Below, in pieces: positions 19,121 through 37,616 of a stretch of 64,000 nt of DNA. Each line of letters opens with the position of its first letter. Position 1 is the stretch's first letter. Origin of the DNA: Verrucomicrobia bacterium 12-59-8 (lineage in GTDB: Bacteria > Verrucomicrobiota > Verrucomicrobiae > Verrucomicrobiales > Verrucomicrobiaceae); the NCBI GenBank assembly GCA_002279765.1, contig NCCR01000033.1:1-64000 (forward strand). The letters run 5' to 3'. Both the position numbers and the translations under genes were made by a program. The notes beneath the pieces were generated by a model, which was not told the DNA's origin, did no database searches, and worked only from the letters and a program-made list of their open reading frames with translations.

Positions 19121-19153
19121 TAGCGCGGAAACCTGACTGATAGCTGCCCTACG

Positions 19154-19184: not shown

Positions 19185-19232
19185 GTTGATGCCTTCGTTG
19201 CACGAATGACGTGCTTCGTGTCATGTTTGCAC

Positions 19233-20861
19233 ATGCGCTGGCTATATCGTTTCCTCATTCTCGCCGCCTGCCTTGGCGGCATCGCGTGGTTTCATCACGT
19301 CCGCACACACAGGCCCACGCGTGTCGAGGCGGCCAATCGCGCGGGCATTCTACTGGCTGGCAACGGCAGCGAGCCCGCCACGCTTGATCCTCAGCTCGCC
19401 AGCGGTACGCCTGAACATTTGATCTTCCATTCGCTCTTCGAGGGTCTCATCGCCCCGGCACCTGAAAATCCTGATGGGGACGCGCCTGGAGCCGCCGTCT
19501 CATGGAGCGCCGAAAATTTCACTGTCTGGACCTTCAAACTTCAGCCTCAGGGCAAATGGAGCGATGGCACGCCGCTCACTGCCGCCGATTTTTTGTACGC
19601 CTACCAGCGCATACTCACAGCGCAGCTCGGCGCTGATTACGCGAGCATGCTCTACCCGATGCTCAATGCCGAAGAGTATCACACCGGCAAGATCCAGGAT
19701 TTCTCCCAGGTCGGGGTGAAAGCACTCGATCCGCTCACACTGCAGATCACACTGAAAGGACCCGCACCCTATCTGCCCAGCATGCTCAAGCACTACTCGT
19801 GGTTCCCTGTGCCAAAGCAGGCCATCGAAAAATTTGGCGTGATGACCGACCGCAACACACGCTGGACGCGCCCTGCGAACATGGTCTGCAACGGCCCCTT
19901 CAAACTCAAAAGCTGGCAGGTCAACCAGGCCCTCGAAGTCGAACGCAACCCGCATTACTGGGACGCGACCACCGTCAAACTCAACGGCATCATCTTCCTC
20001 CCCATCTCCAGCGACACCACCGAGGAGCGTGCCTTCCTAGACGGCCAGCTTCACATCACGCTGACAATGCCGCTGTCCAAGATCCCCGCCTATCGCGAAA
20101 GCAAGTCGCCGTATTATCACAACGATCCGCTGCTGAGCGTTTACATGTACCGCTGCAACACCAAGAAAAAGCCTTTCGATAATCCGCTGGTGCGGCGTGC
20201 CCTCGCTCTTGCGATCGACCGTGAGAGCATCACGCGCAATATTCTCCGCGCTGGTCAGCAGCCTGCCACAGGTCTTACTCCGCCAGGCTGCAATCCTGAC
20301 TACCATGAGCCCAACATCATGCGCTTTGATCCCGCCGAGGCACGGAGGCTCCTGGCCGAGGCAGGCTTCCCCGATGGCAAAGGCTTCCCCCTGTTCGATA
20401 TTCTCATCAACACCAGCGAGGCCCATCGTTCGCTGGCCGAGGCGGTGCAGGCCATGTGGAAGGAGCATCTCCACCTTCCTGCCGGAGTGTTGAACCAGGA
20501 CTGGGGAGTCTATCTCGAATCCCAGCGCAGGTTTGACTATCAAATCGCCCGTTTTGGCTGGGTGGGTGACTATCTCGACCCCTCGACCTTCCTGGCCATC
20601 TGGCAGACTGGCGACGGCAACAACAACACCGGCTGGGGCAACCCACGCTACGACGAACTCATCCATCAAAGCTTTCAAGAAGGTGACGCCGCCAAACGAC
20701 TGCAACTCCTCAGCGATGCTGAAACCATTCTGCTCAATGAAGCCCCCATGCTGCCAATCTACTGGTACACGCATTCGTATCTGATGCGCCCCGAGGTCAA
20801 AGGCCTGCTGCCATCCCTACTCGAACATCGCTGCTACAAGGCGGTGGAATTGAAACCGTGA
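19233..20861 (+). CDS. Oligopeptide ABC transporter substrate-binding protein (OppA-like)
   Basis: A 542-residue family 5 extracellular solute-binding protein. The ATG at 19233 starts a signal or anchor sequence (M-R-W-L-Y-R-F-L-I-L-A-A-C-L-G-G). The mature domain begins with G-x-E-P-A-T-L-D-P-Q-L-A-S-G, the conserved opening of OppA/peptide-binding proteins. It contains G-x-W-S-D-G-T-P-L-T-A-A-D-F and, in the second lobe, V-R-R-A-L-A-L-A-I-D-R-E. It probably delivers peptides or related amides to the permease pair just upstream, though a terminator separates them. A lipobox Cys is not certain; the C in A-A-C-L-G is inside the hydrophobic run. Confidence 0.9.
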   Translation: MRWLYRFLILAACLGGIAWFHHVRTHRPTRVEAANRAGILLAGNGSEPATLDPQLASGTPEHLIFHSLFEGLIAPAPENPDGDAPGAAVSWSAENFTVWTFKLQPQGKWSDGTPLTAADFLYAYQRILTAQLGADYASMLYPMLNAEEYHTGKIQDFSQVGVKALDPLTLQITLKGPAPYLPSMLKHYSWFPVPKQAIEKFGVMTDRNTRWTRPANMVCNGPFKLKSWQVNQALEVERNPHYWDATTVKLNGIIFLPISSDTTEERAFLDGQLHITLTMPLSKIPAYRESKSPYYHNDPLLSVYMYRCNTKKKPFDNPLVRRALALAIDRESITRNILRAGQQPATGLTPPGCNPDYHEPNIMRFDPAEARRLLAEAGFPDGKGFPLFDILINTSEAHRSLAEAVQAMWKEHLHLPAGVLNQDWGVYLESQRRFDYQIARFGWVGDYLDPSTFLAIWQTGDGNNNTGWGNPRYDELIHQSFQEGDAAKRLQLLSDAETILLNEAPMLPIYWYTHSYLMRPEVKGLLPSLLEHRCYKAVELKP

Positions 20862-20925: not shown

Positions 20926-22758
20926 TCACCCCGCCTTGCGCCAGATCGTCGTCAGCGTGCCGCGAAACGTGATCTTCACCGCCTGTGTCGTCGCCAGTTC
21001 ACGAAAGTGTGGCGAGGCCTCGCACTCCACGATCTCCCACTGCTCGATGGCGTCACCATTCAGTGTGGCATTCACAGGAATTGATTCCGTATGATGGCAA
21101 ACGAAGCCGCTCTTGCGCTCCCGCTCGACGCGCCAGCCGGGTGCCAGCTGCCACGTCACGACGTGCGGTTTTTCGTGGCCGACATCGTCGCAGATTTCCA
21201 CATAATCCTGCATCACATGCACGGCACGTTTGGTTTGGCCGCCTTCGCCGCCAAAGCTCATCACGCAGATGTCATGGCTGATTTCGAGTCCCGGCTTGGC
21301 ATGATGCTTCGCCCACAAAAATGCCCCCATGCGCATGGGTGACGAACGGCCTGTGACGGGCACGGGACCATTGTGGGCCTCCCATGAGGCGAGTCGCGCC
21401 CGCAATGCCGGATTGCTATAATAAGCGCCCGTTCCTGGATCAATGATGAGCGCGTGCTGCTCAAACCAAAGCGACACATGCAGTGCATCGAGATGACCAT
21501 GCGCAGCCATGCTGCCAAGACCGAGCGGGGAGGCATCCGCTCTGACAGTCCAACGCGCATCGCGCCAGATGGCCTGCCCGCTTTGCTCATGCGTCAGCCA
21601 TTTGCTGCGCATCGCCGCCTTCACGCCTTTGGGTGGTTCACCCAGCCAGAAACGCAGCACAGCGCCATCCGATCTGTTTAACAGCCAGCCACGGAATTCT
21701 GCTGCTGCGTTGGTGCGTTTCAGCGGCAGCGGCAGCACCTGCGCATCATCGGAGTCGCCGAAATCCCAGCAGTCCGGTGCTTCGACCACATCCACGAAGT
21801 ATTGTGCCGACTGGGTCAAGCGCTCCAGAACTTCCGTCTTGAAACCACCCGCCGCCATGCCTGCGTGCCAGCACATTTCCCAGGCGAACAAGTGATAATG
21901 CAAAGCCTGCTCCCTATTGCCGCCGTCTGCTGCGAACTGCAGCAAAATCTCACGCTCCAGCCGTTTCACGATGTTCTTCGCCGGACGGATCATGCGTGCC
22001 AGCGCAGGCCAGCGGGCAATCGCCATCACCAGTGCGCTCAGTTCGCCGATGAGATGATTGTTCGCGGAGGAGCCGAACGAACGGCGACTCCAGATCCACC
22101 ATGCATGCGTGGGAACGATGCGCGCGGTCAGTTCATCCTGCCTGCAGGCGAGTTCGGGATCATTGCAGCCGCGCACCAGCGCATCGAACCAGCAGAAATT
22201 CATCAGCCGCAGGCCCGCTTCGAGCGGACTCGTCCAGTTGATGCCGTGCCCTGGTGGGTTGCGTTCGCACCAGTCTTCCAGCCAGAGCTGAGAAACACGG
22301 ATCGCATGCACATCTCCATTCAGGGCGCTGTGCATCGCCATGCGCGTCATTTCGCTCCATCGATTGATCTCCCAGATGGCCCGCGCATCGGCATCGTAAT
22401 CCAGGTGGCGATGATCCAATTTTTTTGCTGGAATGTCAGGATCGATCACGACACCCAAAGTCGCATCGCGGTGCCAGCATGGTGGTGCCCCCAGTTCGAC
22501 GCTCTTCCAGCCAAACAGCTCCCACTCGCCCCGCATCAGCTTCTCCGCATCCACGGCCAGTTGTTTGCGCAACTCGGGGGGCACACGATCACGCCAGGGG
22601 AGCTTTGGCACTTCTGTGAAGGAGCCATCCCATGGAGCATGGGCGATGCGCCTTAGATTCGCGATTTCGTTTCGCCGCGCTAAGCGCTCTGCCACACGAT
22701 GAGCGATTTCACTCACGCTCATCGCACGCAAACGCTGCATGTACCAGCCCAGGCTCAT
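20926..22758 (-). CDS. Heparinase II/III-family protein (polysaccharide lyase-like)
   Basis: 610 residues. The N-terminal helical toroid starts W-Y-M-Q-R-L-R-A-M-S-V-S-E-I-A-H-R, as in the alginate-lyase/heparinase proteins found in exopolysaccharide clusters. The C-terminal half carries the H-G-H-L-D-A-L-H motif and D-P-G-T-G-A-Y-Y of the heparinase II/III beta-sandwich domain. Such enzymes cleave uronic-acid-containing polysaccharides by beta-elimination; here the likely role is trimming or release of the locus polysaccharide. There is no signal peptide, so its location is unclear. Its ATG overlaps the stop of the upstream dehydrogenase gene (TGATG). It is the last gene before the terminator. 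Confidence 0.85.
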   Translation of the reverse strand: MSLGWYMQRLRAMSVSEIAHRVAERLARRNEIANLRRIAHAPWDGSFTEVPKLPWRDRVPPELRKQLAVDAEKLMRGEWELFGWKSVELGAPPCWHRDATLGVVIDPDIPAKKLDHRHLDYDADARAIWEINRWSEMTRMAMHSALNGDVHAIRVSQLWLEDWCERNPPGHGINWTSPLEAGLRLMNFCWFDALVRGCNDPELACRQDELTARIVPTHAWWIWSRRSFGSSANNHLIGELSALVMAIARWPALARMIRPAKNIVKRLEREILLQFAADGGNREQALHYHLFAWEMCWHAGMAAGGFKTEVLERLTQSAQYFVDVVEAPDCWDFGDSDDAQVLPLPLKRTNAAAEFRGWLLNRSDGAVLRFWLGEPPKGVKAAMRSKWLTHEQSGQAIWRDARWTVRADASPLGLGSMAAHGHLDALHVSLWFEQHALIIDPGTGAYYSNPALRARLASWEAHNGPVPVTGRSSPMRMGAFLWAKHHAKPGLEISHDICVMSFGGEGGQTKRAVHVMQDYVEICDDVGHEKPHVVTWQLAPGWRVERERKSGFVCHHTESIPVNATLNGDAIEQWEIVECEASPHFRELATTQAVKITFRGTLTTIWRKAG

Positions 22759-24935
22759 CACAGTGCGATGCTTCGCCCTTCGCGAATGGATTCTAGTACA
22801 GCGAACGTCAGGTGCATGCTCTGCCGAGCCTGCTCATATGGCAGCGGATGCGCTGCCCCGTCCTTCAAGAAAGACAGCCATGCTGCCATTTCCTCCGCAT
22901 GCCCCTTTGAGGTGAATTTCTTCACGGACTCTTTGCGCTGTTTGAAAATCGATAGCTTCATGAAGTTCTCGCACTCGCATACCAGACCGCTCGCGAATAC
23001 GCGGAAGGTTTCCTTTGGGAAGGCCGAGTCGCCTTCGGCGGAATAAATCACCTGCGCAGACGAACCGTCCGCAAACTCGATTTGGGCCGCGACTGAATCC
23101 GGCACCTTGGGTCGGCCCAACGTCTGTGCGGTGACTTTCACAGGCTTGCCTAGGACATGGCAGGCGTAGTCAAAGAAGTGACAGGCTTCTCCTAGTACAC
23201 GCCCGCCGCTTTCGGCGACATTCGCGTACCAATGATCTGGCGCGAGCACGCCTGCATTCACATGGAAGACCAAGGTCTTCGGCCCTGAAACCGTTCTGAG
23301 AACCTCCATGATTGCCAGTGTCGCTGGAGCAAAGCGGCGGTTGAAGCCGACCATCACGCTGCCATTTGATGCGAGCATGGCCGTATCGATCTGTGCCAGT
23401 TCCTCAGGTGTCAGACATAGGGGCTTCTCGACAAATACCTGTTTCCCGGATTGCAGCGCCTTCAGTACGAGCGGTGCATGGAGATGATGCCGGGTGCCGA
23501 TCATTACGGCTGCGTGAGACAGGCTACCAACATGCTCCAAACCCACAGGCTGGCAGCCTGTTTCACTTCCAAACACCTTCGACGAATCCGTCTCTGCGTT
23601 CGCGAAACCAAACTTCTCTTTCACATGGCGTGCTGAGAGCCCTGTGGCATTCACAATGGCTCCGAGCGTGATCTTTCCCTTCACATGCGGCAGCAGCATC
23701 GTGCGAGCGAAATTGCCCGCGCCGATGACATCGAGGATCTCAATGTTGTGCTGTAGTTTTGAATTTAGGAGGCCCGGAAACTTGGGGGGAGTTTCGCGCA
23801 TTTCGACATCGGACCGGCTGAAGCCGGGACTACAATACTCAATCAGCACGCCTAGCTCGCTTTCGAGTTGGTCGTAAACTTCCAGGACATCGCTAAAGGC
23901 AACCCGGCGAGTGGTCACTGGTTTTAAATTCAGCTGGCCGGTGCGCATCAGTTCCAGGCAGGCTTCAAAGTTTCGGTTTTCTGTCCAGCGCACATGACCG
24001 ATGGGGTAATCCTGCCCGCCCCATTCATATTGCGGATCGTAGCGACCTGGACCATAGCTGCGTGAGTAGCGCACCTGAATGTCCTTCATGTAGGCGGTCT
24101 TCCATGACAATTCGGCATCGTAGATGCCCACGATCACCATCACGCCGCGATCACGCAAGCAGGAGATAGCGGTGTCCGCAGCGTCGCGACCTTTGCCGCC
24201 GACGCAAAGCAGCAGTGCGTCCACACCGTGGCCGTCTGTCCATGCGCGAACCTCGTCTTCGAGTTTTGATTGCAACGGATTCACCACGAGCTCCGCGCCC
24301 ATGGCGAGTGAGGTTTGCAAACGATCGGCGACAAAATCCACGCCCATCACTCGTGCACCGGAAGCCTTCAGTAAGCTTGTTGCTAGCAGGCCCACGAGCC
24401 CCTGCCCCATGACCAGCACACGCTCCCCGAGCCGTGCATCGCTTTGACGGACTGCCTCCATCGATATGGAAGCCAGCGTCGTGTAGGCAGCCTGCCAGTT
24501 TTCCACGCCTGTGGGAATACGCGCTGCCAGCAAGTCTGGAACCGCGATCATCTCCGCGTGAAACGCACACTCTGCGCCGCCGCAGACCACGCGATCGCCC
24601 ACATGGAAGCGTGAGTTCAACTCATCCACTGCCACGACGATTCCCGCAGCGGAGTAGCCCAGCGGCGTTGGCGATTCGAGCCGGTTGCGCACTTTCTGCA
24701 GTGCGGCTTTCCAGCCGAGAGTTTTCGCCGTATCGATCACTTTTTTGACCTGATCCGGCCGTGCCTTGGCCTTTTGCAGCAGCGACATCCGCGCCTGCTC
24801 CACCTTCATACGCTCCGTCCCCGGCGAGATCACCGAACAGGTCGTCTGAACCAGGATTCCACCCGGAGGTGGCACCGGTGCGGGAACCTCCTGCAGTTCA
24901 AGGCGTCCGTCTTGGTATTGGGCGAGTTGTTTCAT
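22758..24935 (-). CDS. Bi-domain oxidoreductase: Zn-type ADH fused to Gfo/Idh/MocA dehydrogenase
   Basis: 725 residues with two complete dehydrogenase modules. Residues about 1-360 are an MDR/alcohol-dehydrogenase-like unit with P-L-G-Y-S-A-A-G, F-x-V-G-D-R-V-V-C-G-G and a Rossmann V-M-G-Q-G-L-V-G-L. Residues about 395-720 are a Gfo/Idh/MocA sugar dehydrogenase beginning V-I-G-A-G-N-F-A (G405) with E-K-P-L-C-L-T as the NAD/substrate lysine motif. Such fusions recur in surface-polysaccharide loci and are thought to oxidise or epimerise sugar intermediates; the exact reaction is unknown. ATG at 24935 is preferred over a TTG one codon upstream. It is coupled to the heparinase gene. Confidence 0.88.
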   Translation of the reverse strand: MKQLAQYQDGRLELQEVPAPVPPPGGILVQTTCSVISPGTERMKVEQARMSLLQKAKARPDQVKKVIDTAKTLGWKAALQKVRNRLESPTPLGYSAAGIVVAVDELNSRFHVGDRVVCGGAECAFHAEMIAVPDLLAARIPTGVENWQAAYTTLASISMEAVRQSDARLGERVLVMGQGLVGLLATSLLKASGARVMGVDFVADRLQTSLAMGAELVVNPLQSKLEDEVRAWTDGHGVDALLLCVGGKGRDAADTAISCLRDRGVMVIVGIYDAELSWKTAYMKDIQVRYSRSYGPGRYDPQYEWGGQDYPIGHVRWTENRNFEACLELMRTGQLNLKPVTTRRVAFSDVLEVYDQLESELGVLIEYCSPGFSRSDVEMRETPPKFPGLLNSKLQHNIEILDVIGAGNFARTMLLPHVKGKITLGAIVNATGLSARHVKEKFGFANAETDSSKVFGSETGCQPVGLEHVGSLSHAAVMIGTRHHLHAPLVLKALQSGKQVFVEKPLCLTPEELAQIDTAMLASNGSVMVGFNRRFAPATLAIMEVLRTVSGPKTLVFHVNAGVLAPDHWYANVAESGGRVLGEACHFFDYACHVLGKPVKVTAQTLGRPKVPDSVAAQIEFADGSSAQVIYSAEGDSAFPKETFRVFASGLVCECENFMKLSIFKQRKESVKKFTSKGHAEEMAAWLSFLKDGAAHPLPYEQARQSMHLTFAVLESIREGRSIAL

Positions 24936-24950
24936 CAATGGGTGTTCAAT

Positions 24951-26315
24951 TCACTGTTTCAGTTTGCTCACCAGCCACTTGTGCTTTCCCGCGCTGGTCT
25001 TCTCCACTTCAGCCACCTGCCGCAAGGTGTGAGTGAAGTCATCTCCCAGTTTTTTTAACAAGCCCGCATGCATTGCCTGCTCCTGGCTGCTTTGCCATTG
25101 CGGCCCTGGTTGAAAGCGGCATTCCACCGCGCCTTCAAGTTCTTGAAAGAACTGCACGGCTAGAAGGCCATCAAAGATACGGTCATGCATGTTAATGGCG
25201 GTGAGCGAGATGCGGCGACCAGTTGAGCTGACGAGGTATTCATAATCGCGGCCCACTATTTCTGAAGCCTCGCCATCCGTGATTTTCGCAAAGTCTCCAG
25301 TGCGATACCGGATCAAGGGCATGACGTGATTGTGAAACGAGGTGCCGATGATCTCGCGGTTTCCTTCCGCGTCGGACTTGCCGAATTCGACGAAGCCGTA
25401 CGTGGGCCAGAAATGCAATTGATTGGAGGTGCGGCCCTGAGCGGCGAGGACAACGCGCTCGCTGTGGCCATACCAGTGCATGACGCGTGCTCCGAAAAAG
25501 TGCTCAAGATACTGCTGCGATTCTGTGGTGAGTTTTTCTGAGCCGCAGAGAAGTGAGGTGAGCTTGAAGTCGAGTTTCAGGCCCGTCTGCTCCAGTCCGC
25601 GCGCCAGCATGAGTGCCGCACTCGGGTAGGCATGCAGGTGCTGCGGGCGGAAGCGGTTCAATGCTGCCACATACCCGGGCAGGCGCTCCAATGTGAGATG
25701 GTAAGATGAGAGAATGAGCCAGTTCCGTGTGGCATCGTAATAGCTGATGCTGCCAGCGGCCTTGCTCGACGTGACGCCCCCTCGAATCACGGCCACTCGG
25801 TCTCCGACGCGATACCCACGCCGTGACCATTGCGCCTCCAGATAGGCCTGCTCCTTTGGTCGACTTATCCCTTTGTGCAGATAGAAGCCCACGGGTACAC
25901 CGCTTGATCCGCCGGTTGTGATGTAGAGCCGCTGCTTCGAGTCGAACTCCGGATTGACCATCTGCTCGCGCTGCAAAATCAAATCCTGCTTTGTGAGAAG
26001 CGGGTAGTCGGCCAATTGTTCCAGCGTCTCAAACTTTGATGGATCGACTCCATGAGCTGCAAACCGAACTGCATAAAACGGAGCTTTTGCAGCGGCCATC
26101 AACGAATCCTTCAGCACCGCGATTTGATAACGCCGGATTGTGTCGGCGTCCCAAGTCTCCACCTCCCGAGCTTCGTTTTGAAAACGCGTGTAGGCCGGGC
26201 CGTAGCGCAGGGAGGACGGAATTGCTCGATACGCCCGTCCCGCCAATGACTTCACGAGCTGAGGTGCTGCCTCGTAGAGTTTGAGCAGCGGATATAGAGT
26301 GTCTTCGAGAGACAT
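24951..26315 (-). CDS. CapK/PaaK-like adenylate-forming enzyme
   Basis: A 454-residue member of the phenylacetate-CoA-ligase-like (CapK) group. The P-loop-like motif T-T-G-G-S-S-G-V-P is at 133-141, followed by the central W-Y-G-H-S-E-R and Y-R-T-G-D-F motifs of the ANL-type fold. CapK proteins are frequent in capsule and exopolysaccharide loci and probably activate an acid for attachment to the polymer or a lipid; the substrate is not known. It begins 3 bases after the larB stop, with 15 bases to the next gene, so it is in the same operon. Confidence 0.87.
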   Translation of the reverse strand: MSLEDTLYPLLKLYEAAPQLVKSLAGRAYRAIPSSLRYGPAYTRFQNEAREVETWDADTIRRYQIAVLKDSLMAAAKAPFYAVRFAAHGVDPSKFETLEQLADYPLLTKQDLILQREQMVNPEFDSKQRLYITTGGSSGVPVGFYLHKGISRPKEQAYLEAQWSRRGYRVGDRVAVIRGGVTSSKAAGSISYYDATRNWLILSSYHLTLERLPGYVAALNRFRPQHLHAYPSAALMLARGLEQTGLKLDFKLTSLLCGSEKLTTESQQYLEHFFGARVMHWYGHSERVVLAAQGRTSNQLHFWPTYGFVEFGKSDAEGNREIIGTSFHNHVMPLIRYRTGDFAKITDGEASEIVGRDYEYLVSSTGRRISLTAINMHDRIFDGLLAVQFFQELEGAVECRFQPGPQWQSSQEQAMHAGLLKKLGDDFTHTLRQVAEVEKTSAGKHKWLVSKLKQ

Positions 26316-26318
26316 GAT

Positions 26319-27077
26319 TCAAGGCTTCGGCTGCATGTTCAGCATGCGCAATGCCGCCATCGCTGCGCCGAAGCCGTTGTCGATATTCACGACGGTGAGG
26401 CCGCTAGCACAGGAGTTGAGCATGCTGAGAAGGGCGGAGATGCCATGCAGATTTGTGCCATAGCCGACGCTGGTCGGAACAGCGATCACCGGAGCGGCAA
26501 CGAGTCCGCCGAGGACGCTGGGCAGCGCGCCTTCCATTCCGGCGATGGCGATGACGATGCTCGCGGCGCGTAAATCATCGAGCCGTGCCAGCAGACGATG
26601 GAGGCCCGCTACACCGACATCGGTGATGCGGTTCACGCGTGCGCCGGCAAATTCGAGGGTCTGCGCGGCTTCTTCGGCCACTGGTAAATCTGAGGTCCCA
26701 GCGCACACCACTGCGACAGGTTTCGATGGGAACGAGATACTCATCTGCTCGATGCGATACAGGCGCGAAACGATGTCGTAGCTGCCGATTGGGAAGCTCT
26801 TCTGCAGCAGCGCGGCGACTTCGGGCTTCACGCGGGTGGCGAGCGCACTACCATGGGCAGCGACGAGGGCGGTGAGGGCGTCTGTGATCTGGGCGAGCGT
26901 TTTCCCTTCGGCGTACACGGCTTCAGGAAAGCCCTGGCGGATCATGCGATGAGTGTCGGCCAGAACCTGACCGACCTCGGCAAACGGCAGCGTGCGGAGG
27001 CTTTCCAGTGCCTGGTCAGGAGGCAGTGTGCCAGCGCTGACTTGAGCGAGCAGATCACGAAGTTTTGATTCGTTCAT
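26319..27077 (-). CDS. larB: Nickel-pincer cofactor biosynthesis protein LarB
   Basis: A 252-residue homologue of LarB, the PurE-like enzyme that carboxylates and hydrolyses nicotinic acid adenine dinucleotide to pyridinium-3,5-biscarboxylate mononucleotide, the first step of the Ni-pincer nucleotide pathway. The PurE-like C-terminal half shows V-C-A-G-T-S-D-L-P-V-A-E-E-A, D-V-G-V-A-G-L-H-R, A-G-M-E-G-A-L-P-S-V-L-G-G-L and V-P-T-S-V-G-Y-G. The start overlaps the larE stop by ATGA. larC (nickel insertion) and larA (lactate racemase) are not in the window. Confidence 0.92.
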   Translation of the reverse strand: MNESKLRDLLAQVSAGTLPPDQALESLRTLPFAEVGQVLADTHRMIRQGFPEAVYAEGKTLAQITDALTALVAAHGSALATRVKPEVAALLQKSFPIGSYDIVSRLYRIEQMSISFPSKPVAVVCAGTSDLPVAEEAAQTLEFAGARVNRITDVGVAGLHRLLARLDDLRAASIVIAIAGMEGALPSVLGGLVAAPVIAVPTSVGYGTNLHGISALLSMLNSCASGLTVVNIDNGFGAAMAALRMLNMQPKP

Positions 27078-27874
27078 GCGGAGCGGGCTTTGAGCACTTC
27101 ATTCATGCTGCCCGTACGCAGTCCGACGAGATCAAGCGTGACGTAGGTGTAACCGGTGGCACGCAACGCGGCGTTGATGGCCTCACGCTGCTGCAAGGCG
27201 CGCAGCAGATCGGCCTCGGGCACTTCAAGGCGAGCGACATCACCATGATGACGCACGCGCAGCTCACGGAAGCCGAGATCAAACAATGCTGCCTCGGCGC
27301 GCTCGATCTGCGAGAGCAGTTTTGGTGTCACGCTCGTACCATAAGGCACGCGGGAGGCGAGGCAGGCGGCGGCGGGCTTGTCCCAGTTTGGCAGCCCAAG
27401 AGCTTTGGCGGCGTCACGCACGTCTTGTTTACTGAAACCGAGATCGTGCAACGGGCTGAGGATTTTTAATTCACGAGCAGCGGCGCGGCCAGGGCGAACA
27501 TCGAGCGTGTCCTCGGCATTCATGCCATCAAGCACATGCTCGATGTTGTTCTGCTCAGCAAATTGACGGAGGGCACGATAGACGTGGTCTTTGCAGAAGT
27601 AGCAGCGATTTGGCGCGTTTGCCTGATACGCGGGATCGTTCACTTCTGCGGTCGGCAGCAGTTCAAGACGTACACCAAGCTGTTGGGCGCGAGCGACGGC
27701 TTCGGCCTTTTCGCTTTGCGGCAAACTGGGGGAAACGGCGAGCAAGGCGATAACATTGTCAGCACCAAGCACATCGAGTGCAGCTTTCAGCACAAGTGTG
27801 CTATCCACACCACCCGAGTAGGCCACGGCAACGCGCTGCAATGGGCGGAGATGAGTGAGTAGGCGGTCGATCAT
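27074..27874 (-). CDS. larE: ATP-dependent sulfur transferase LarE (Ni-pincer cofactor biosynthesis)
   Basis: A 266-residue PP-loop ATPase (S-G-G-V-D-S at 20-25) that adenylates the LarB product and inserts sulfur. Three cysteines stand out: C91 and C94 in N-R-C-Y-F-C-K, and C171 in A-A-C-L-A-S-R. C171 is at the position of the sacrificial cysteine of the classical enzyme. The extra C-x-x-C is the arrangement reported for LarE forms that use an iron-sulfur cluster and so act catalytically. It is ATGA-coupled to a methyltransferase upstream and larB downstream. Its presence inside a polysaccharide operon is unusual. Confidence 0.92.
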   Translation of the reverse strand: MIDRLLTHLRPLQRVAVAYSGGVDSTLVLKAALDVLGADNVIALLAVSPSLPQSEKAEAVARAQQLGVRLELLPTAEVNDPAYQANAPNRCYFCKDHVYRALRQFAEQNNIEHVLDGMNAEDTLDVRPGRAAARELKILSPLHDLGFSKQDVRDAAKALGLPNWDKPAAACLASRVPYGTSVTPKLLSQIERAEAALFDLGFRELRVRHHGDVARLEVPEADLLRALQQREAINAALRATGYTYVTLDLVGLRTGSMNEVLKARSA

Positions 27875-28521
27875 GATTTTTTTACAGCAATGTAACTTTT
27901 GGTGAAGAGCCCCAAACAGACTTTCTCACGTAGAATCTCGCAGCTAGGGAAGAGTTTCACCATCTCAGCATGGGTGAGGAGACGAATGTCGCCAATGAAA
28001 GCAGTGACCTGCTGAGCATCGGGTCGGGTGAGCCAGCCCCAGACGCTGAAGTTGCGCGCGAGGCGGTGCTGCCAGGATTTTGGCAGCCAGTGAATAAAGG
28101 GAGTCATGAAATGCGGCTCAATCCAAAATTCCTGTGCCGGCGTCTGCACCCACAAACGCCTGCCAGTTCGAATCACTTCGGTGGCAAAGGCTTTTTGACG
28201 TTCCCAATCCCCTACATGCTCGATGACGCTGTTGCAAAAAACGATATCGAAGGACTGATCTGCAAATGGCAGGGCGCACCCGTCAGCCACCAGAAAACGA
28301 AAGTGGCCCGGATGAGCAGGCGGGGTGATTTCGTGTACATTGACGATGCAAATTTCTGCCGCGATCTGCTGATGACCATCCCAGGTGGCCGGATACCCGC
28401 CGATGTCGAGGATGCGCTCATGCGGCTGCGGCTGAATACAGTCCAGAAACTGCGCAAAGCGCTTTTTGCGGAAGGTTTTAAAAATGAGCCGCCAAATTTG
28501 ATGGACGAGCGTTTGCTTCAT
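27871..28521 (-). CDS. SAM-dependent methyltransferase
   Basis: A 216-residue class I methyltransferase. The SAM-binding motif I is slightly degenerate, R-I-L-D-I-G-G-Y-P-A-T-W at about 36-47. Later motifs are F-D-I-V-F-C-N-S-V-I-E-H-V-G (motif IV/post) and the aromatic L-W-V-Q-T-P-A-Q-E-F-W-I-E. It belongs to the broad Methyltransf_11 group; the target is unknown but is likely a polysaccharide or lipid intermediate. Its start overlaps the EpsI stop, and its stop overlaps the larE start, both by ATGA. Confidence 0.85.
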   Translation of the reverse strand: MKQTLVHQIWRLIFKTFRKKRFAQFLDCIQPQPHERILDIGGYPATWDGHQQIAAEICIVNVHEITPPAHPGHFRFLVADGCALPFADQSFDIVFCNSVIEHVGDWERQKAFATEVIRTGRRLWVQTPAQEFWIEPHFMTPFIHWLPKSWQHRLARNFSVWGWLTRPDAQQVTAFIGDIRLLTHAEMVKLFPSCEILREKVCLGLFTKSYIAVKKS

Positions 28522-29231
28522 GTTCGCGGCATGAGATTTTTCTGAAATTTCGGTGCCAAAGTACGCACGAGATTGAGCAGCATCTCGACAGTTTCTTCAT
28601 CACTGCGCATGCGCTGCCCCGTTTTCACAGATGGCAGGTCCTCTGTGACCCAGGCCATGACAGAGGGGTAGGCCCAGCGATGATTGATGTTGTGCAAAAT
28701 GTTGTCGCGGAAGCTCAGAATCTGGCGCTCCATATTGCTCGCGGTGGTGACATCCGTCCCAACAAACCAGTAGATGTAATGGGCGTGCAGCGATTGCTTT
28801 ACACCGTTGCCGAGCAGCACTTCGCGCATGATGGCGAGGTCACGCACTTGCAGCACATCCCCGGAGAGCAGTTTGACATCACGCACACGGGAATCGGTGA
28901 CCGTCCATCCCTGACCGTCGAGACAAACCTCGGGGCGGTGAATGCTGCGACTGTCATTTCCTGCAATAACGAGGGACACGTTGGCGAGATCACGGTTTTC
29001 CTTGGAGCGGCCTGGTGTGTGATACACTCGTTTGACGATGATCGTGTCACTGGGGAGTAGTTCGATTTCCTTTTGGCTCGGTGGCTCGCTCTCGCCGACA
29101 AAACCTCCTGCGACCATTGGCAATTCGGCCAGCACCCCCGCTTCATTGCCACCTTTAGTCTCAGGCGAGAACTGGCAGAGTATCAAGGTCATGATGCAGA
29201 GAGCCAGAAGAATGAAAGCGCGTGCGATCAT
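28518..29231 (-). CDS. epsI: Exosortase-associated protein EpsI (DUF3485)
   Basis: 237 residues. The start at 29231 gives an N-terminal membrane helix (M-I-A-R-A-F-I-L-L-A-L-C-I-M-T-L) followed by a periplasmic domain. The family hallmark H-R-P-E-V-C-L-D-G-Q-G-W is at about 98-109 with C103. EpsI proteins are nearly always found next to, or fused with, exosortases in exopolysaccharide clusters; the biochemical role is not settled. The ATGA overlap with the exosortase gene supports a shared function. Confidence 0.92.
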   Translation of the reverse strand: MIARAFILLALCIMTLILCQFSPETKGGNEAGVLAELPMVAGGFVGESEPPSQKEIELLPSDTIIVKRVYHTPGRSKENRDLANVSLVIAGNDSRSIHRPEVCLDGQGWTVTDSRVRDVKLLSGDVLQVRDLAIMREVLLGNGVKQSLHAHYIYWFVGTDVTTASNMERQILSFRDNILHNINHRWAYPSVMAWVTEDLPSVKTGQRMRSDEETVEMLLNLVRTLAPKFQKNLMPRT

Positions 29232-30193
29232 AAGACAGGGACAACCACCTGACGTGAGACTGTGCGCGAGCGTTTGAAACCCAGACCGCCGCACCAGCGA
29301 TCCAGCAGCCATGAGGCAAACTGCAGCAGCAGCAGGGCCACGAGGAAGACACCGATGCCGGTGAATTCATGGAAGGCAGACACTTTCTTTTCGGTGTCTC
29401 CAATGGCCCATTGCTGGCCGAAGATCATGGCCGCGAAGATCAGGACGAGAATGCGCACCATGTTTGCCACGATAGCGATGGGCAGGATTGTACTGAACAG
29501 CACGAGCCTGCGCCACATTACGCGCTGGCGAAAATAGCTGAACAACGCACCGACGACGAGCAGCGCAAACAATGAGCGCATGCCTGAACATGGAGCAGCG
29601 ATACCCACGCTGAACAACTCGCCTGCTTTACGTCCGAATTCGATGTTGGACATGGATTGCAGAGCAGTACCGGAAACAAGTGAGTCGACCCCGATCGAGT
29701 TGAGTACAAAACCTGTCGTCCTGACCATGAGGAGGCGCATCTGGTAGCCAATGCTTTCCTCCAAAAAGGGCAGCGGCCACATGAAGCCGAGCATCAGCCA
29801 GGCAAACAGCCGGGCGCGGCTGCGCTGAGCGCCTTCGAGCCACAGCGAAGCACCGGCAATCAAAGTCATGACACCCAAGTAGCCGCAGTAGAAGTTGTTG
29901 GCACGGAATCCGGCGAAATAGCAGAACAGTGCGAGCACGATGAGCACCAAACCCCACCGGTTGGATGATTCCGAGAGATGCGCAAGATCATGGCGCTGAC
30001 GCCAGATCAAATAGCCGACAATGAAGGGGATCAAGGCACCATGCTGCCAGGTGGCGTCGTGCCACCGCATGAATAATTCGGCGCAGATCGTGCGCCGGAA
30101 GTGTCCGTAACCTGCCGCATAGGGCTGCACGGCCAGCAACAGCACAAAGCTGAGGGCTAGCAAGATCAAAGAGATGATGTGCTTGCGGTTCAT
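29228..30193 (-). CDS. xrt: Exosortase (PEP-CTERM sorting transpeptidase-like membrane protein)
   Basis: A 321-residue polytopic membrane protein with about eight hydrophobic segments. The catalytic set of exosortases is complete: Cys202 in A-A-P-C-S-G-M-R-S-L, Arg247 in N-M-V-R-I-L, and His275 in S-A-F-H-E-F-T-G. These enzymes recognise PEP-CTERM tails and are thought to cleave and transfer the substrate during export. A PEP-CTERM substrate lies at the left edge of the window. The start at 30193 is chosen over upstream in-frame codons because it overlaps the previous stop by ATGA and directly precedes the first helix. The C-terminus continues past the last helix as a short basic tail. Confidence 0.95.
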   Translation of the reverse strand: MNRKHIISLILLALSFVLLLAVQPYAAGYGHFRRTICAELFMRWHDATWQHGALIPFIVGYLIWRQRHDLAHLSESSNRWGLVLIVLALFCYFAGFRANNFYCGYLGVMTLIAGASLWLEGAQRSRARLFAWLMLGFMWPLPFLEESIGYQMRLLMVRTTGFVLNSIGVDSLVSGTALQSMSNIEFGRKAGELFSVGIAAPCSGMRSLFALLVVGALFSYFRQRVMWRRLVLFSTILPIAIVANMVRILVLIFAAMIFGQQWAIGDTEKKVSAFHEFTGIGVFLVALLLLQFASWLLDRWCGGLGFKRSRTVSRQVVVPVL

Positions 30194-30984
30194 GCGGCGG
30201 ATTTGCGGAAGGAACAGCGCAGGATGTCGCCGAATCCGAACAGACACAGCATTTTCTTCAGCGGCTCCTTCCATGCCTGTGCTTCGTTGATGGCGAAAGT
30301 GCGGCGAAACTCGACTGCGCAACGTTTGAAGCCGGTTTTTTCCACCAGCGGAGTCAAACTGGCTGCGGTGAAGTGATTCACATGATGGTCGAGCACGAAC
30401 TGCCAGCGCAGGCCGTGCAAACGACGCATATAACTGCCCCAGTTCGGAACTTCGATGACCAGCCAGCCACCGGGGCGCAGTTTGCGATGAATCTGCGCCA
30501 GCGTGGTGCGCGGGTCGGGCAGATGCTCCAGCACATGAAACAAGGTCACCACGTCCAACGAGTCATTTGGAATTCTGTCCGGGATCGTTCGGCCCTCGTG
30601 CCATTCGATCTCGGGATGATGCGTTTGACCTTCGGCCACTGCTTTATGGCTGTCCTCCAGCACGATGGACTGAAAGCCCTCGGCATGAGCAGCGAGCGCG
30701 GTTTTGCCGATGCCGCCGCCGAAATCGAGCAGACGACCGGCTGGCATGAAACGGCGTACGCTCACGATGCGATCACGCTCGGTGGCGGTGATTTGCAGCG
30801 GATAGCTTTGTGCGGGCTGAAGCGCCGGATCGTAGTAGTCCGTGGCCGAATAAGGGTCACACCAAGTAGCCCGATCTGCAAAGACGAGACCGCAGGCGCA
30901 GCGCCAGAGATGGCAGACACCCGCGCGACCGATTTCGGTATCGGCCACGGCATCGCAGGCGGGGCAGGAAGGGGCCACACTCAT
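30190..30984 (-). CDS. Methyltransferase with N-terminal zinc ribbon
   Basis: 264 residues. A short zinc-ribbon-like head (C7-P-A-C10 and C29-A-C31-G-L-V-F) is joined to a class I methyltransferase domain with R-L-L-D-F-G-G-G-I-G-K at about 84-94 and D-V-V-T-L-F-H-V-L-E-H-L-P-D-P. This layout is typical of Methyltransf_23 proteins from polysaccharide and sugar-methylation clusters. It is first in the exosortase sub-operon, with its start 49 bases from the divergent glycosyltransferase gene, so a promoter should lie between them. Confidence 0.87.
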   Translation of the reverse strand: MSVAPSCPACDAVADTEIGRAGVCHLWRCACGLVFADRATWCDPYSATDYYDPALQPAQSYPLQITATERDRIVSVRRFMPAGRLLDFGGGIGKTALAAHAEGFQSIVLEDSHKAVAEGQTHHPEIEWHEGRTIPDRIPNDSLDVVTLFHVLEHLPDPRTTLAQIHRKLRPGGWLVIEVPNWGSYMRRLHGLRWQFVLDHHVNHFTAASLTPLVEKTGFKRCAVEFRRTFAINEAQAWKEPLKKMLCLFGFGDILRCSFRKSAA

Positions 30985-31033
30985 GACACTAGTCGTTGCG
31001 CGCACGTCCCGCGTGATGGTAGGGTTTGCCAGC
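30985..31033. promoter_or_regulatory. Short divergent intergenic region, probable bidirectional promoter
   Basis: Only 49 bases separate the divergent starts of the zinc-ribbon methyltransferase and the family 9 glycosyltransferase. The five genes from the methyltransferase through larB are coupled by ATGA overlaps, so their promoter is probably here or within the start of the neighbour. No consensus -35/-10 is evident. Confidence 0.3.
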
Positions 31034-32014
31034 ATGACGCTGCTCGTTTTCAAAGTGAACCAACTCGGCGACAACGTCGTGTATCTGCCTGTCGTGCAAT
31101 CGCTCGCAGCGGCGCATCCTGAATGGCGCATCGTGGTGCTAACGAGTCCGACGGCGGCGCGGTTGTATGAGGTTTGCTGCCCCCAGGTGGAACTGCGAGT
31201 GTTTGAGACGGCGCAGTTCAACGGTGCATGGCGCAAGCCGTGGGGTTTGGCACGAATGGCCGTGGCACTGCGTGCCTTGAAGCCGGATGCCTGCCTGCTC
31301 GGTGATGATCAGGGCAATGTGGCGCATCTGCTGGCACGACTGAGCGGCGCGCAGGTGTGCGTTGGACCGCAGACACCTCATGTGCGACTCAACGACCTGC
31401 TGCATCATCGTGAGGCGGTACAGGGAGAGGAAACTGTGGCGGCACATAACTGGCGCATCGCCGGATCGCAATTTGAACTGCCGGAATGCATGCCCGCGCC
31501 CGATCTGCGCGCGTTTGGCAGCGATGAATCGGGGGCGATCGTGATTCATGCGGGGGCGAGCCGTGAGTATCAGCGCTGGCCGTTGCGCCATTTTATTGAT
31601 CTGGCGAACCGGCTCGCGGAGACGCACACTGTGCGCTGGATTGTACAAGGTGAAGACGCCGGATTGAGCGAAACCGTGCAGCGGGTGAAGACGAATACGC
31701 TGGATGAACTGGTGTGCGTGATTGCGGGTGCGAAGCTGTTTGTCGGCAACAATTCGGGACCGATGCAAATCGCCGCCGCACTCGGCACGCCGGGCGTCAT
31801 TATGATCGGACCATCCTCGCCACGCTGGGATCCCGTCTGGCATGGCGAACGGCTTGAACTGCTGCGTGAGCCGCGCATGAGCTGCCAGCCCTGTGACAGC
31901 GCCACGAAGCCGGCGAATCGTTGTTTGAACACGCAGATGCCAATGGCCTGCCTGAATCGCTGGAGCGTCGATGCGGTGCATGAGCGGGTGATCAAACTTT
32001 GCAGGCCATCGTGA
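31034..32014 (+). CDS. Glycosyltransferase family 9 (heptosyltransferase-like)
   Basis: 326 residues and the only plus-strand gene in the polysaccharide locus. ATG at 31034 is preferred because it opens the canonical strand L-L-V-F-K-V-N-Q-L-G-D; earlier in-frame starts would run into the divergent promoter region. The C-terminal half shows V-I-H-A-G-A-S-R-E-Y-Q-R-W-P, and F-V-G-N-N-S-G-P-M-Q-I-A-A-A-L-G-T-P is the nucleotide-sugar binding signature of ADP-heptose:LPS heptosyltransferases. This agrees with gmhA and the heptose kinase gene in the same locus. The 3' end overlaps the convergent methyltransferase by 23 bases. Confidence 0.88.
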   Translation: MTLLVFKVNQLGDNVVYLPVVQSLAAAHPEWRIVVLTSPTAARLYEVCCPQVELRVFETAQFNGAWRKPWGLARMAVALRALKPDACLLGDDQGNVAHLLARLSGAQVCVGPQTPHVRLNDLLHHREAVQGEETVAAHNWRIAGSQFELPECMPAPDLRAFGSDESGAIVIHAGASREYQRWPLRHFIDLANRLAETHTVRWIVQGEDAGLSETVQRVKTNTLDELVCVIAGAKLFVGNNSGPMQIAAALGTPGVIMIGPSSPRWDPVWHGERLELLREPRMSCQPCDSATKPANRCLNTQMPMACLNRWSVDAVHERVIKLCRPS

Positions 32015-32802: not shown

Positions 32803-33900
32803 CTAAGCAGGGATGGTCGTTTGCCGTCTTTTCAGGAAACCGGCACGCCATGCGAGAAACCATGCCTCCAAAGGGACGCCTGCAACCACCATGCATGCCA
32901 TGACGAAACCTCCCAGGATGAAACATGCCTCTGCAAAACCCAGACTCATACCGCGCGCATGCACGACCGCGACAACGGCGTCCAGCAGCGGCTGATGCAG
33001 GATGTAAAGAGGATAGCTTAGCATGCCGAGCCAACCCGCCGCCGACGTCAGCACCCGCAGGCCCGGCCAGTGAGTGCTGCCCAGCACCAAACCCAGCCAA
33101 CCGGGCAGCCCCAGCCAACCTAGCATCACAAACACGGACACCGGCACATGACGTCCAAGCAGCCAGAGGTGGGCAACGTAAATCCCAATGATCCAGCAAA
33201 CGGACACCGACAGGAGCCAAGGGCGGACGTGAGGGACCCAAGTCTCCCAGCACTGGGCAAGCAGCGCACCTCCCAGCCACAGTGGAAACTGCGCAGCAAT
33301 CAAGGCCATGGGCAAAGCTGCAACTTGCACGTCTGCTCCCCACAAACGTTTCCATGCTGCAAACAACACCCCTGTCAGCAAAAGCGTGCCGACGAGTGAA
33401 ACCGCAAAAGCCCGCCCCGGCCGCCAGCTGCAGCCTGCAAGCACCAAAGGCCAAGCTACATAATAAGCAGCCTCGTAGGTCAGGCTCCAAGCCGGCTTGA
33501 CCGCCGGTAGTACTCCGGTGATGCCCTGCAACATGAGCAGATGGGAAAGGAGGCTCCCGAACCCCAGCCAGCCCGATACCATTATGCCTAGCATCAACGC
33601 GACCAGGTAAAGGGGATAAAGGCGCGTTACCCGTGCCAGAAAATAGGGGGCTCCAAATTCCCCGCCTTTTTTGCGCAAATTGAGAATCGCCTGATGAATG
33701 CAAAAGCCAGACAGCACAAAAAAACCGTTCACCCAAAATCCACCGTTTCCAAACACAACCTCCATCCACGGCGGCACAGTGGCATCTCTGACGATGAGCC
33801 GGGCTGATTCAATGACGTGAGAAACCAGAACCATGATGGCCAGCAGGCCACGCATGAGATCAACCGCTATTCCCTCAGGACTGGTTTTTAACCTGCTCAC
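32803..33900 (-). CDS. Acyltransferase family 3 (OafA-like) membrane protein
   Basis: A 365-residue integral membrane protein with about ten hydrophobic helices. The N-terminal D-L-M-R-G-L-L-A-I-M-V-L-V-S-H and G-F-W-V-N-G-F-F-V-L-S-G-F-C-I-H are the Acyl_transf_3 landmarks (catalytic His of the R-x-x-A-x-x-V-x-x-x-H type). Members O-acetylate or otherwise acylate surface polysaccharides. I chose the GTG at 33900 because it overlaps the preceding stop in a GTGA arrangement, like most junctions here; an ATG at 33933 is the alternative and adds 11 residues. Confidence 0.87.
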   Translation of the reverse strand: MSRLKTSPEGIAVDLMRGLLAIMVLVSHVIESARLIVRDATVPPWMEVVFGNGGFWVNGFFVLSGFCIHQAILNLRKKGGEFGAPYFLARVTRLYPLYLVALMLGIMVSGWLGFGSLLSHLLMLQGITGVLPAVKPAWSLTYEAAYYVAWPLVLAGCSWRPGRAFAVSLVGTLLLTGVLFAAWKRLWGADVQVAALPMALIAAQFPLWLGGALLAQCWETWVPHVRPWLLSVSVCWIIGIYVAHLWLLGRHVPVSVFVMLGWLGLPGWLGLVLGSTHWPGLRVLTSAAGWLGMLSYPLYILHQPLLDAVVAVVHARGMSLGFAEACFILGGFVMACMVVAGVPLEAWFLAWRAGFLKRRQTTIPA

Positions 33901-35048
33901 GCGGCGAGTTGATGTTGGATGAAAGTGGCCCACTGTGCAGCGACAGCATCATGCGTGTAGAGCATGCGAGTACGTTCGTACTGGCTCTGAGCGATTGTGG
34001 AACCACCCATCACACCACGAATGCGTTCGGCAAGTGCGTGGGCATCGCTACAAGGGAATAGGGCAGCTTTGAAGCCGATGACTTCAGGGATGGCTCCACT
34101 GGAGGACCCGAGTGTCGTGACTCCGCAGGCCATGGCCTCGATGAGGACATGGCCAAACTGTTCCTCCCAACAAATGGCCATAGTTCGCACCGGTTTACTG
34201 GCGAGGACGAAGACATTGAGGGAGCGCAGGAAAGCGGGGATTTCGAAATGCGGACGTGGCGGCAGCAGGTGCAGCCATGGCCGCGTCTGCTGCTGCTCCT
34301 TAAGCCAGGATTCGAGTCTGCCAGAACCGAGAATGGCGAGATGAACGCCCTGCAGAGCCTCACAGGCCTGAAGCAGTTCGTGGAGGCCTTTTTCTTCCGT
34401 CAATCGCCCGCAGTAACCGACGATGAATGCATCTGCAGGCAATCCGCAACCTTGGCGCAGAGCGACGCGCTCGGCAGATGAAGCGGGCTGGTGATTGGCA
34501 AGATCGACGCCGAGCTGCGGAGCGACGAGCACATCGTCAGCACGTGCGCCATGCCGCTGCACGAGTTGAGATGCGGCTTGATTGCCGGCGATGATAAAGT
34601 CGGTCGTGGCGGTCATGGCACGATAAATGGGATCGAGTATGAATCCCTTCCAACCTAGGCGCTCGACGTTCTCCCAGGTGAACTCGCCGAACAAGGCGTG
34701 ACGTTGCAGCAGTGATTTCCAAATCCGTGCCTGCCAGCAGACACAGGCCCAAGGTTCGTTTTCGACGAGAACCACATCAAAACGACGCGACCCCATGACT
34801 GCGGCGAGGCCAACGTAGAAAAAGGTGGTCGTGGTTTGACCACGACACGGCAGGCGAATGAGCCGGTAGTTGCGGGTGGGCGCGTCACTGTCGTTGTCGA
34901 AGTCGGCAGCAGGTCGTCCCATCACCATGCCTTGTTCAATGACGGAGGTGACACAGACGAGGTCGAAATGTATGGCAAGTGATTGCAACTTCTTGCGATT
35001 TTCAAGGGCCGCATAGGTATGGCTGATGAGCAGCAGACAGGGTCTCAT
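33897..35048 (-). CDS. Glycosyltransferase family 4
   Basis: 383 residues, GT-B fold. The acceptor domain begins L-L-L-I-S-H-T-Y-A-A, and the linker region V-G-Y-C-G-R-L-T-E-E-K-G-L-H-E-L-L starts the donor domain. The E-x7-E-type donor-site motif is F-G-H-V-L-I-E-A-M-A-C-G. It is cytoplasmic and likely adds a sugar to the growing repeat unit; donor and linkage are unknown. It is ATGA-coupled to the preceding glycosyltransferase gene. Confidence 0.88.
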   Translation of the reverse strand: MRPCLLLISHTYAALENRKKLQSLAIHFDLVCVTSVIEQGMVMGRPAADFDNDSDAPTRNYRLIRLPCRGQTTTTFFYVGLAAVMGSRRFDVVLVENEPWACVCWQARIWKSLLQRHALFGEFTWENVERLGWKGFILDPIYRAMTATTDFIIAGNQAASQLVQRHGARADDVLVAPQLGVDLANHQPASSAERVALRQGCGLPADAFIVGYCGRLTEEKGLHELLQACEALQGVHLAILGSGRLESWLKEQQQTRPWLHLLPPRPHFEIPAFLRSLNVFVLASKPVRTMAICWEEQFGHVLIEAMACGVTTLGSSSGAIPEVIGFKAALFPCSDAHALAERIRGVMGGSTIAQSQYERTRMLYTHDAVAAQWATFIQHQLAA

Positions 35049-36190
35049 GCAATGGAAGGCTTGGCGGCAGCAGCCTGGGTGAGCAGATCGGCAAAGCGCT
35101 TGGAATAGGTCTCGCTGTCGATGGCATGTTTCAGCGACTGCCCCTGCGGCTTCCAGAGGCCATCAACAAACTCGGCGAGCACCGAGGCGATACCGCCGGC
35201 ATCGAAGGGGATCTGGCGACCATTGACCTGGTCTTCGAGAATCATCTCGGAGCCATGGTGAGGTGTAAGGAAGAGCGGAAGCCCGCAGGCGGCGGCTTCA
35301 ATCTCGACGAGAGCAAACGCTTCCGAGTAGGAAGGAAACAGCAGGGCATCTGCCGCGGCGAGGTAACGCTCTACATCTGGCACCATGCCGGCGAAGGTGA
35401 TCCAGTCCTCTTTGGGACCCAGTTCTGCCTGGAGCGCGGCCAGCCGTTCCGGGCGGCCACCGACGACCAGAAAGCGCACCGCAGGATGGGTGGGAACGAG
35501 GCAGCGGAGAGCCTCAACCGCAAGGAAGAACCCCTTGCGGCGATAGTGCCCAGCGCTGACAAAAATAAATACATGATGGGAATTATCGTAGCCGAGGCGG
35601 CGGCGCATCTCCGCGCGAAAGGCATCCCGCACACCGAGATTGAAACGCGCGGGGTCGTAACTGTTGGGCAGGACTTGAACCGGTATGTGCGGAGCCTCGG
35701 CGCGCATGTCATCCGCCACAGATTGCGAGACACAGATGAGCTCCCTGGCGGTGGTCTGGCGCAAAAAATGGCGCGCGCGGCGGAGTCCGAGAACCGTGGC
35801 AAAGCGCTCGACCAGATCCCGCAAAGAATGGATGCCAAGGCTGCGCTGGCGCTTCTCCCAATCGAAGGGAGAGAAATGCACATGACACACATCACAAGCC
35901 TTGTAATACCAAGCGAGGGAATAAATGAGGTCGGGGCGAGGCTGTTTTTTCACTGTGAACAACCACCAGGCCCGCCAGAAGATGAGCCATCCAAACACGT
36001 AGCCGCCGAAGATGCGAACATCGCCGATGCGCGGAAGCTTGTGGATGCGGACAGGAAGGTCGGCCTCGCAACTCCAGCACCAAGCCTCAACCTCCATGCC
36101 GCGGCTTCGCAGGGTGTCGAGCGCGCGCAGCACGCCTTTCATCGACGGGCTGGCGAACGTTAGGTTGGGATCGATGATGAGGAGCCTCAT
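35045..36190 (-). CDS. Glycosyltransferase family 4
   Basis: 381 residues, GT-B fold. F-I-F-V-S-A-G-H-Y-R-R-K-G-F begins the donor domain, and S-E-A-F-A-L-V-E-I-E-A-A-A-C-G-L-P is the donor-site signature with its two glutamates. The N-terminal region carries several Trp/Phe-rich segments that may lie on the membrane. Its start overlaps the stop of the frameshifted methyltransferase (TGATG), and its stop overlaps the next glycosyltransferase (ATGA). Confidence 0.88.
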   Translation of the reverse strand: MRLLIIDPNLTFASPSMKGVLRALDTLRSRGMEVEAWCWSCEADLPVRIHKLPRIGDVRIFGGYVFGWLIFWRAWWLFTVKKQPRPDLIYSLAWYYKACDVCHVHFSPFDWEKRQRSLGIHSLRDLVERFATVLGLRRARHFLRQTTARELICVSQSVADDMRAEAPHIPVQVLPNSYDPARFNLGVRDAFRAEMRRRLGYDNSHHVFIFVSAGHYRRKGFFLAVEALRCLVPTHPAVRFLVVGGRPERLAALQAELGPKEDWITFAGMVPDVERYLAAADALLFPSYSEAFALVEIEAAACGLPLFLTPHHGSEMILEDQVNGRQIPFDAGGIASVLAEFVDGLWKPQGQSLKHAIDSETYSKRFADLLTQAAAAKPSIA

Positions 36191-36773
36191 CAGCGTGCAG
36201 CTTTTTGAGATAGCATGAGAATGCTAAAGGGGGTGTCGGTGCGGCGAGCTTCCGCGTTGAGATGAGTTTCTGCATCTACCCAGGCATCGGGCACAATGGA
36301 ACCATGCGCCGGGAGGTTTGAAGCAGAGACCATGCGGTCTGTGGTACGCCGGATGAGGAAATAGTCCGTATGGAGCGGCTTCAGGCCATGCGGAGCAAAA
36401 AGTGCGGCGAGATCGCTCTCCGTGTAGCCTTCACGAAAGCGACCGTCGTTGGGGAAGGACTCCGGCGGATGCGGCACAGTGATGAGCGCGTAGCCGCCAG
36501 GCTTGAGCACGCGACAGAGCTCTGCGGCGGCTTTTTCATGATCTTCAATGTTCTCGATGACCTGGGTGCTCATGACCATGTCCATGGACTCATCTTCCAG
36601 CGGCACATCAAGCCGGCGGTAGTTTTCTGCGTCGAACTCCAGCGCCACGACGTTTTTTGCAAAGCCGGCAGAGAGGAACGCCGCAAAAACTCTCCCGAGC
36701 CAGCGCCTCCGTCAAACAAGGTCTGCGCGCCGGGCATCTTGGCGAAGGCCTCCCGCAGACGCTCCCATTCCAC
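36190..36773 (-). pseudogene. SAM-dependent methyltransferase split by a frameshift
   Basis: Two overlapping frames together encode one methyltransferase. The upstream frame (GTG at 36773) carries the SAM motif T-L-F-D-G-G-A-G-S-G-E. The downstream frame continues with V-F-A-A-F-L-S-A-G-F-A-K-N-V-V-A-L-E-F-D and the rest of the domain (D-M-V-M-S-T-Q-V-I-E-N-I and V-L-K-P-G-G-Y-A-L-I-T-V-P). The join falls at about 36690-36693, beside a run of five T on the coding strand. One missing base there, for example a lost G in GAG-GTT, would restore a protein of about 194 residues. It may be a sequencing error or a real inactivating mutation. Methyltransferases of this type are common in the locus. 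Confidence 0.7.
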
Positions 36774-36797
36774 ACGATACCGAAGGGTGTTGGCCGT

Positions 36798-37601: not shown

Positions 37602-37616
37602 GATTGATTTGCTCGC

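Follow-up and report, generated by a model that had tools for sequence, protein, structure and literature searches.

What are the genes for a nickel-pincer cofactor doing inside an exosortase operon, and which enzyme would use their product? The question is raised by larE and larB in a 64,000-nucleotide stretch of Verrucomicrobia bacterium 12-59-8 (contig NCCR01000033.1, positions 1 to 64,000), hereafter the window. Both genes lie on the minus strand: larB (26319..27077) encodes a nicotinic acid adenine dinucleotide carboxylase/hydrolase that scores 282 bits against NF033503 (cut-off 175), and larE (27074..27874) a pincer-nucleotide sulfur insertase with an SGGVDS PP-loop and a CXXC-C motif that scores 327 bits against TIGR00268 (cut-off 150) and has 6b2o and 5udq as PDB relatives. 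Upstream on the same strand are xrt (29228..30193), encoding a short EpsH-type exosortase of 321 amino acids (PF09721, 143 bits, cut-off 25.7; TIGR02602, 121 bits), and the gene for the exosortase-associated protein EpsI (28518..29231), which reaches 54 bits with PF11984 (cut-off 26.1) and 35.4 bits with NCBIfam TIGR02914, under that model's cut-off of 42.8. We tentatively propose, with somewhat less than even confidence, that the precursor made by LarB and LarE is destined for a DUF362 protein of LarA fold rather than for a LarA racemase, and that this protein serves the exosortase-linked polysaccharide. LarB and LarE would yield pyridinium bis-thiocarboxylate nucleotide (P2TMN), the precursor of the nickel-pincer cofactor, and the cofactor and the DUF362 enzyme would act in the surface-polysaccharide pathway, most likely isomerising a hydroxylated sugar or acid unit by hydride transfer. 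The order xrt-epsI-larE-larB-larC-DUF362-capK-biDH-hepII (the last three genes are described below) is taken as ancestral, with larC completing the cofactor; in the lineage of the window larC would have been lost and larE-larB kept, with the DUF362 gene elsewhere in the genome, and a different protein would then load the metal, or the precursor would function with some other metal or with none at all. The proposal is built on gene linkage, co-occurrence within one family, a predicted fold, a residue alignment of weak score and purifying selection, from which we infer the cofactor binding, chemistry, substrate, metal and ancestral state.

Conservation of the linkage

The gene arrangement is more than chance, as the same order is found in relatives. 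An earlier note on this DNA had described a chain of MT1-xrt-epsI-MT2-larE-larB (MT1 and MT2 being methyltransferase genes) joined through ATGA, and the coordinates and the tetramers at all five junctions agree with it. Four-base ATGA overlaps are common within bacterial operons, so the junctions by themselves denote a compact operon and no special system; the informative feature of the locus is the conservation of larE-larB inside the operon. In a scan of a genome collection with a LarB alignment, xrt-epsI-larE-larB-capK-biDH was found at four of the best 80 larB loci (L001-L004), in Verrucomicrobia and Verrucomicrobiaceae records, and the other 76 gave no exosortase match with a model built for this analysis; such models are narrow, and distant exosortases can be missed. 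The collection contains sixty-eight genomes of the family of G004, the genome in which L004 lies. LarB exceeded its cut-off in 35 of them and LarE in 36, and an exosortase of some kind was present in all 68; as genome completeness is not given, absence in any single assembly is weak. Of the 36 larE genomes, 35 have a short exosortase gene upstream on the contig and strand of larE (772-1661 bases between model ends), the sole exception being G042, where larE sits on a 4.2 kb contig. The linkage is thus not confined to one strain. MT2 is variable: the gap between the xrt and larE models is ∼770-880 bases, or 1424-1661 where one more gene fits. The PP-loop and the CXXC-C cysteines are kept in 34 of 34 LarE frames read, and larE-larB are under purifying selection in the type without larC. 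Across 21 loci of that type, including the window, the median ratios of nonsynonymous to synonymous substitution (dN/dS; pairs with dS 0.05-1.5, 18 to 21 sequences per gene) are 0.087 for larE, 0.106 for larB, 0.095 for capK, 0.087 for biDH, 0.156 for xrt and 0.168 for epsI.

These data bear on incidental hitch-hiking, in which larE-larB once landed beside xrt and were kept by descent, with no functional tie to the polysaccharide. The near restriction of the linkage to one family is what such an event would leave: elsewhere in the phylum an exosortase stands near one of 90 larE loci (hand-picked among the matches listed), and the four exosortase-bearing loci among the best 80 larB loci all belong to that family. 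We nevertheless regard hitch-hiking as unlikely, as the best GuaA tree has 10 switches of lar status (6 of them forced by well-supported branches), yet the exosortase is upstream in all but one of the larE genomes, and the linkage persists even though neighbouring genes are rearranged and MT2 varies. The tree covers 40 of the 68 genomes, 18 larE-positive and 22 negative, picked for a usable coordinate.

LarC, LarA and the completion of the cofactor

The absence of larA and larC from the window, already remarked in the earlier note, is borne out by a six-frame search with purpose-built models, in which no larC, larA or DUF362 homologue was found; a hidden lar operon was looked for in the window as well, and none was found. 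Among the 68 family genomes LarC (PF01969) occurs in 12, all LarB-positive; the distance between larC and larB is 20-3267 bases in 11 of these, and in the twelfth (G073) larC is split across a contig break beside larB. LarA (PF09861) occurs in 6, all larC-positive and always with larA on a different contig from larE. Neither larC nor LarA is matched in 23 of the 35 LarB genomes, which constitute the type of the window; the lack of larC is probably not just a matter of the window edge, with no larC match in 23 of 23 such relatives. In the relatives, larB-larE are not explained by a full lar operon that includes lactate racemase. The CapK-like protein was considered as a substitute for LarC and ruled out, as it also occurs where larC does.

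The earlier note had envisaged a lar-dependent epimerase for the polysaccharide. Its larE-larB genes are real and tied to the locus, and a role of the sugar or hydroxy-acid epimerase kind may still apply, but a client of LarA type (DUF2088) is unlikely because 29 of the 35 genomes with LarB, among them all 23 without larC, give no PF09861 match. The alternative of a LarA-type client encoded elsewhere in the genome, a racemase or epimerase for which the operon would merely house the cofactor genes, would suit the six genomes that do have LarA, all with larC, and the characterised clients, which are LarA homologues in the portions of the literature at hand. PF09861 was also silent in a Corynebacterium glutamicum control, although a LarA homologue from this organism is listed in an excerpt of PMC11770544, and a divergent LarA may therefore be missed. 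On balance we consider such a client quite improbable.

In the lineage of the window the product of LarB-LarE might instead be a thiocarboxylate nucleotide that carries no metal, or a metal other than nickel, and has a use of its own, unrelated to DUF362, for example as a sulfur donor or an organic cofactor in polysaccharide synthesis. Consistent with this, larE-larB are under purifying selection even though all 23 genomes are without a larC match, and LarE without LarC is otherwise rare: in a phylum sample of 367 genomes LarE occurs in 224 and LarC in 227, both in 215, LarC alone in 12 and LarE alone in 9 (9/224), one of these being G004, of the type in question. Enzymes that act with free P2TMN are not known to us, and larE and DUF362 still co-occur where larC is missing; this alternative, too, seems to us improbable. 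In the larC-less type, a DUF362 client may depend on a cofactor that some other protein completes or that works without nickel.

A DUF362 protein as candidate client

DUF362 proteins (PF04015 search) occur in 36 of the 68 family genomes, and their set equals the larE set save for two genomes. In larC-bearing relatives larC and the DUF362 gene lie between larB and the CapK-like gene; protein clustering of 41 loci (40 fetched loci and the window) gives, for those with larC, the order larE-larB-larC-DUF362-capK-biDH-hepII, some of them having extra genes between. The DUF362 gene is downstream on the contig of larC in 10 of 12 genomes, and in the remaining two (G012 and G018) larC reaches the contig end. 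Five genomes among the matches listed (G016, G020, G021, G023 and G052) have the short xrt without larE, and as none of them has DUF362, DUF362 tracks larE and not xrt. On supported branches of the GuaA tree, six independent pairs differ in larE, and DUF362 is concordant in 6/6 (p 0.031; G071 coded as without DUF362, G059 outside the tree), larC in 4/6 and the short xrt in about 3/6. The predicted model of the DUF362 protein shows the LarA fold, and a His, a Lys and a His align with the catalytic His, the cofactor-tethering Lys and the nickel-ligand His of LarA, with weak scores, in both HMMER and hhalign. All three are invariant in 68 aligned DUF362 proteins and are retained in the larC-less type; the DUF362 proteins of the 20 fetched loci without larC, G059 included, have a mean identity of 54% to the larC-linked type. 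DUF362 is the best candidate for the client, ahead of a LarA-type racemase.

Several results weigh against this proposal. The two genomes that break the co-occurrence are G071, with larE and no DUF362 (5 kb contig, 3.0 Mb assembly), and G059, with DUF362 and no larE, and the pairs test has a modest basis, namely a single-gene tree in which 14 forks are unresolved. Where larC is missing, the DUF362 gene is not linked to the operon: it lies outside in each of the 20 such loci fetched (from G059 and 19 of the 23 larC-less genomes), and no LarC match was found beside it there. The likeness to LarA is weak, with Foldseek TM-scores of 0.25-0.36 for LarA hits with E below 0.001, Z alignments that span 220-243 of 455 residues, HMMER E-values from 2e-4 at best to 0.21 (six proteins) and an hhalign probability of 1.8% for DUF362 versus LarA; a shallower profile pair (A2 and A3) left the region unaligned, and broader profiles were used afterwards. 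PF04015 was the sole match in four DUF362 proteins scanned, with none to PF09861 (Lar_N), and DUF362 had no match in a search of PDB sequences. In the hhalign alignment no DUF362 histidine faces the THR segment of LarA, which we take to contain H108. A straight-line PF04015 mapping, in which the LarA and DUF362 histidines both fall at 111 from the match start but do not correspond from the end, was not used.

The phylum counts also speak against a wider role. Uncorrected for kinship, DUF362 of any kind is present in 184 of the 224 larE genomes and in 55 of the 143 others. Yet among the 215 genomes with both larE and larC, of which 86 give no LarA match, DUF362 occurs in 68 of these 86 versus 109 of the 129 with LarA; being no commoner where LarA is missing, it does not generally replace LarA. 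Neither LarA nor DUF362 is found in 18 of the 86, DUF362 is present in 43 of 131 genomes without larE and larC, and the close DUF362 type occurs above 150 bits in 2/40 lar-positive and 1/40 lar-negative genomes, or at E 1e-6 in 8/40 and 2/40. DUF362 in general is thus not upheld as a marker of the cofactor. The single exosortase near the 90 larE loci outside the family likewise weighs against the proposal. In that locus (L221:1091-8740, in G113) DUF362, exosortase, EpsI and larE genes lie within 8 kb, with larE and a DUF362 gene of similar type on the strand opposite xrt; the association could possibly be independent. In a Chloroflexota locus (L073) a DUF362 gene stands in line with larB-larE-larC. 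The broader claim that DUF362 of this type is a second pincer-nucleotide enzyme family for surface polysaccharide, and that Prosthecobacter-like lineages make their pincer nucleotide without LarC, through another loader, another metal or no metal, is in our judgement rather doubtful.

Genomic setting and comparison with known systems

The remaining genes of the operon are likewise on the minus strand. MT1 (30190..30984), a class I methyltransferase gene, is the first of the overlapped chain (PF13489, 91.5 bits on the longer open reading frame 30190-31236); its likely start is the ATG at 30984, and its stop overlaps the xrt start as ATGA. MT2 (27871..28521; PF08241, 36.7 bits) lies between epsI and larE. 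The CapK/PaaK-like adenylate-forming enzyme (24951..26315) has sub-cut-off matches only, to PaaK/DVU1553-type enzymes (NF045666, 75 bits, cut-off 300), and its gene follows larB after three bases, as the earlier note had it, with the junction TGA-ATC-ATG. Next come biDH (22758..24938), a two-domain oxidoreductase with zinc dehydrogenase (PF00107) and Gfo/Idh/MocA (PF01408) parts found in 29 of the 41 loci, and hepII (20926..22761), a heparinase II/III-like protein (PF07940, 63 bits; PF16889, 35 bits) found in 26 of the 41, which ends the conserved run. Upstream (32803-43950, minus strand) are genes for an acyltransferase-3 protein, two glycosyltransferases, methyltransferases and a polysaccharide synthesis protein, and farther upstream within this interval a SIS-domain protein, a PfkB kinase and a 3-deoxy-D-arabino-heptulosonate 7-phosphate (DAHP) synthase. 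Facing the operon end on the plus strand are oligopeptide-type ATP-binding cassette (ABC) transporter genes (16920-20861), with permeases at 16920-17840 and 17837-18697 and a binding protein at 19206-20861; a nickel importer was considered here and ruled out, as Opp models outscore nickel ones.

No literature linking exosortase with larE was found. In the part of PMC11796402 (mBio 2024) available, larB, larE and larC occur without larA in ∼15% of the genomes analysed, and it is concluded that pincer-nucleotide proteins yet to be identified probably exist. For this larA-less question the locus puts forward a specific candidate, DUF362, with a rationale from genomics and with exosortase-linked polysaccharide as the pathway, which opens it to direct testing, and the natural larC-less lineages offer a setting for the further question of whether nickel is required. 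Two DUF362 proteins (L138:4376-5737 and L174:9219-10919) also match, far below cut-off, NCBIfam Npun_F2552, a family presumably named for a cyanobacterial gene. These matches are of interest as many larA-less genomes are cyanobacterial, according to the same part of PMC11796402.

Like the lar systems of Lactiplantibacillus plantarum and Thermotoga maritima, the locus encodes LarB and LarE of curated families, and its LarE carries CXXC-C cysteines of the [4Fe-4S] kind, which bind such a cluster in T. maritima LarE (PMC9283937, excerpt). Unlike those systems, the genes lie inside an exosortase/polysaccharide operon, and neither larA nor larC is found in the 23 relatives of its type. The DUF362 protein resembles the LarA (DUF2088) superfamily in its modelled fold and in aligned equivalents of the catalytic, tethering and nickel-binding residues; it differs in belonging to another Pfam family, albeit of the same clan, CL0471, and used as the outgroup of the LarA tree (both from the part of PMC11770544 consulted), and in having no histidine opposite the THR segment, its cofactor being predicted. 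LarA homologues with a single histidine (9q3j and 9q3k) are described in an excerpt of PMC12611868. Finally, the locus is like EpsH/PEP-CTERM exosortase loci in that xrt-epsI is accompanied by genes for glycosyltransferases, methyltransferases, a polysaccharide synthesis protein and an acyltransferase, whereas it departs from them in that a crude scan gave no PEP-CTERM-like tail in the window and in that lar genes lie inside.
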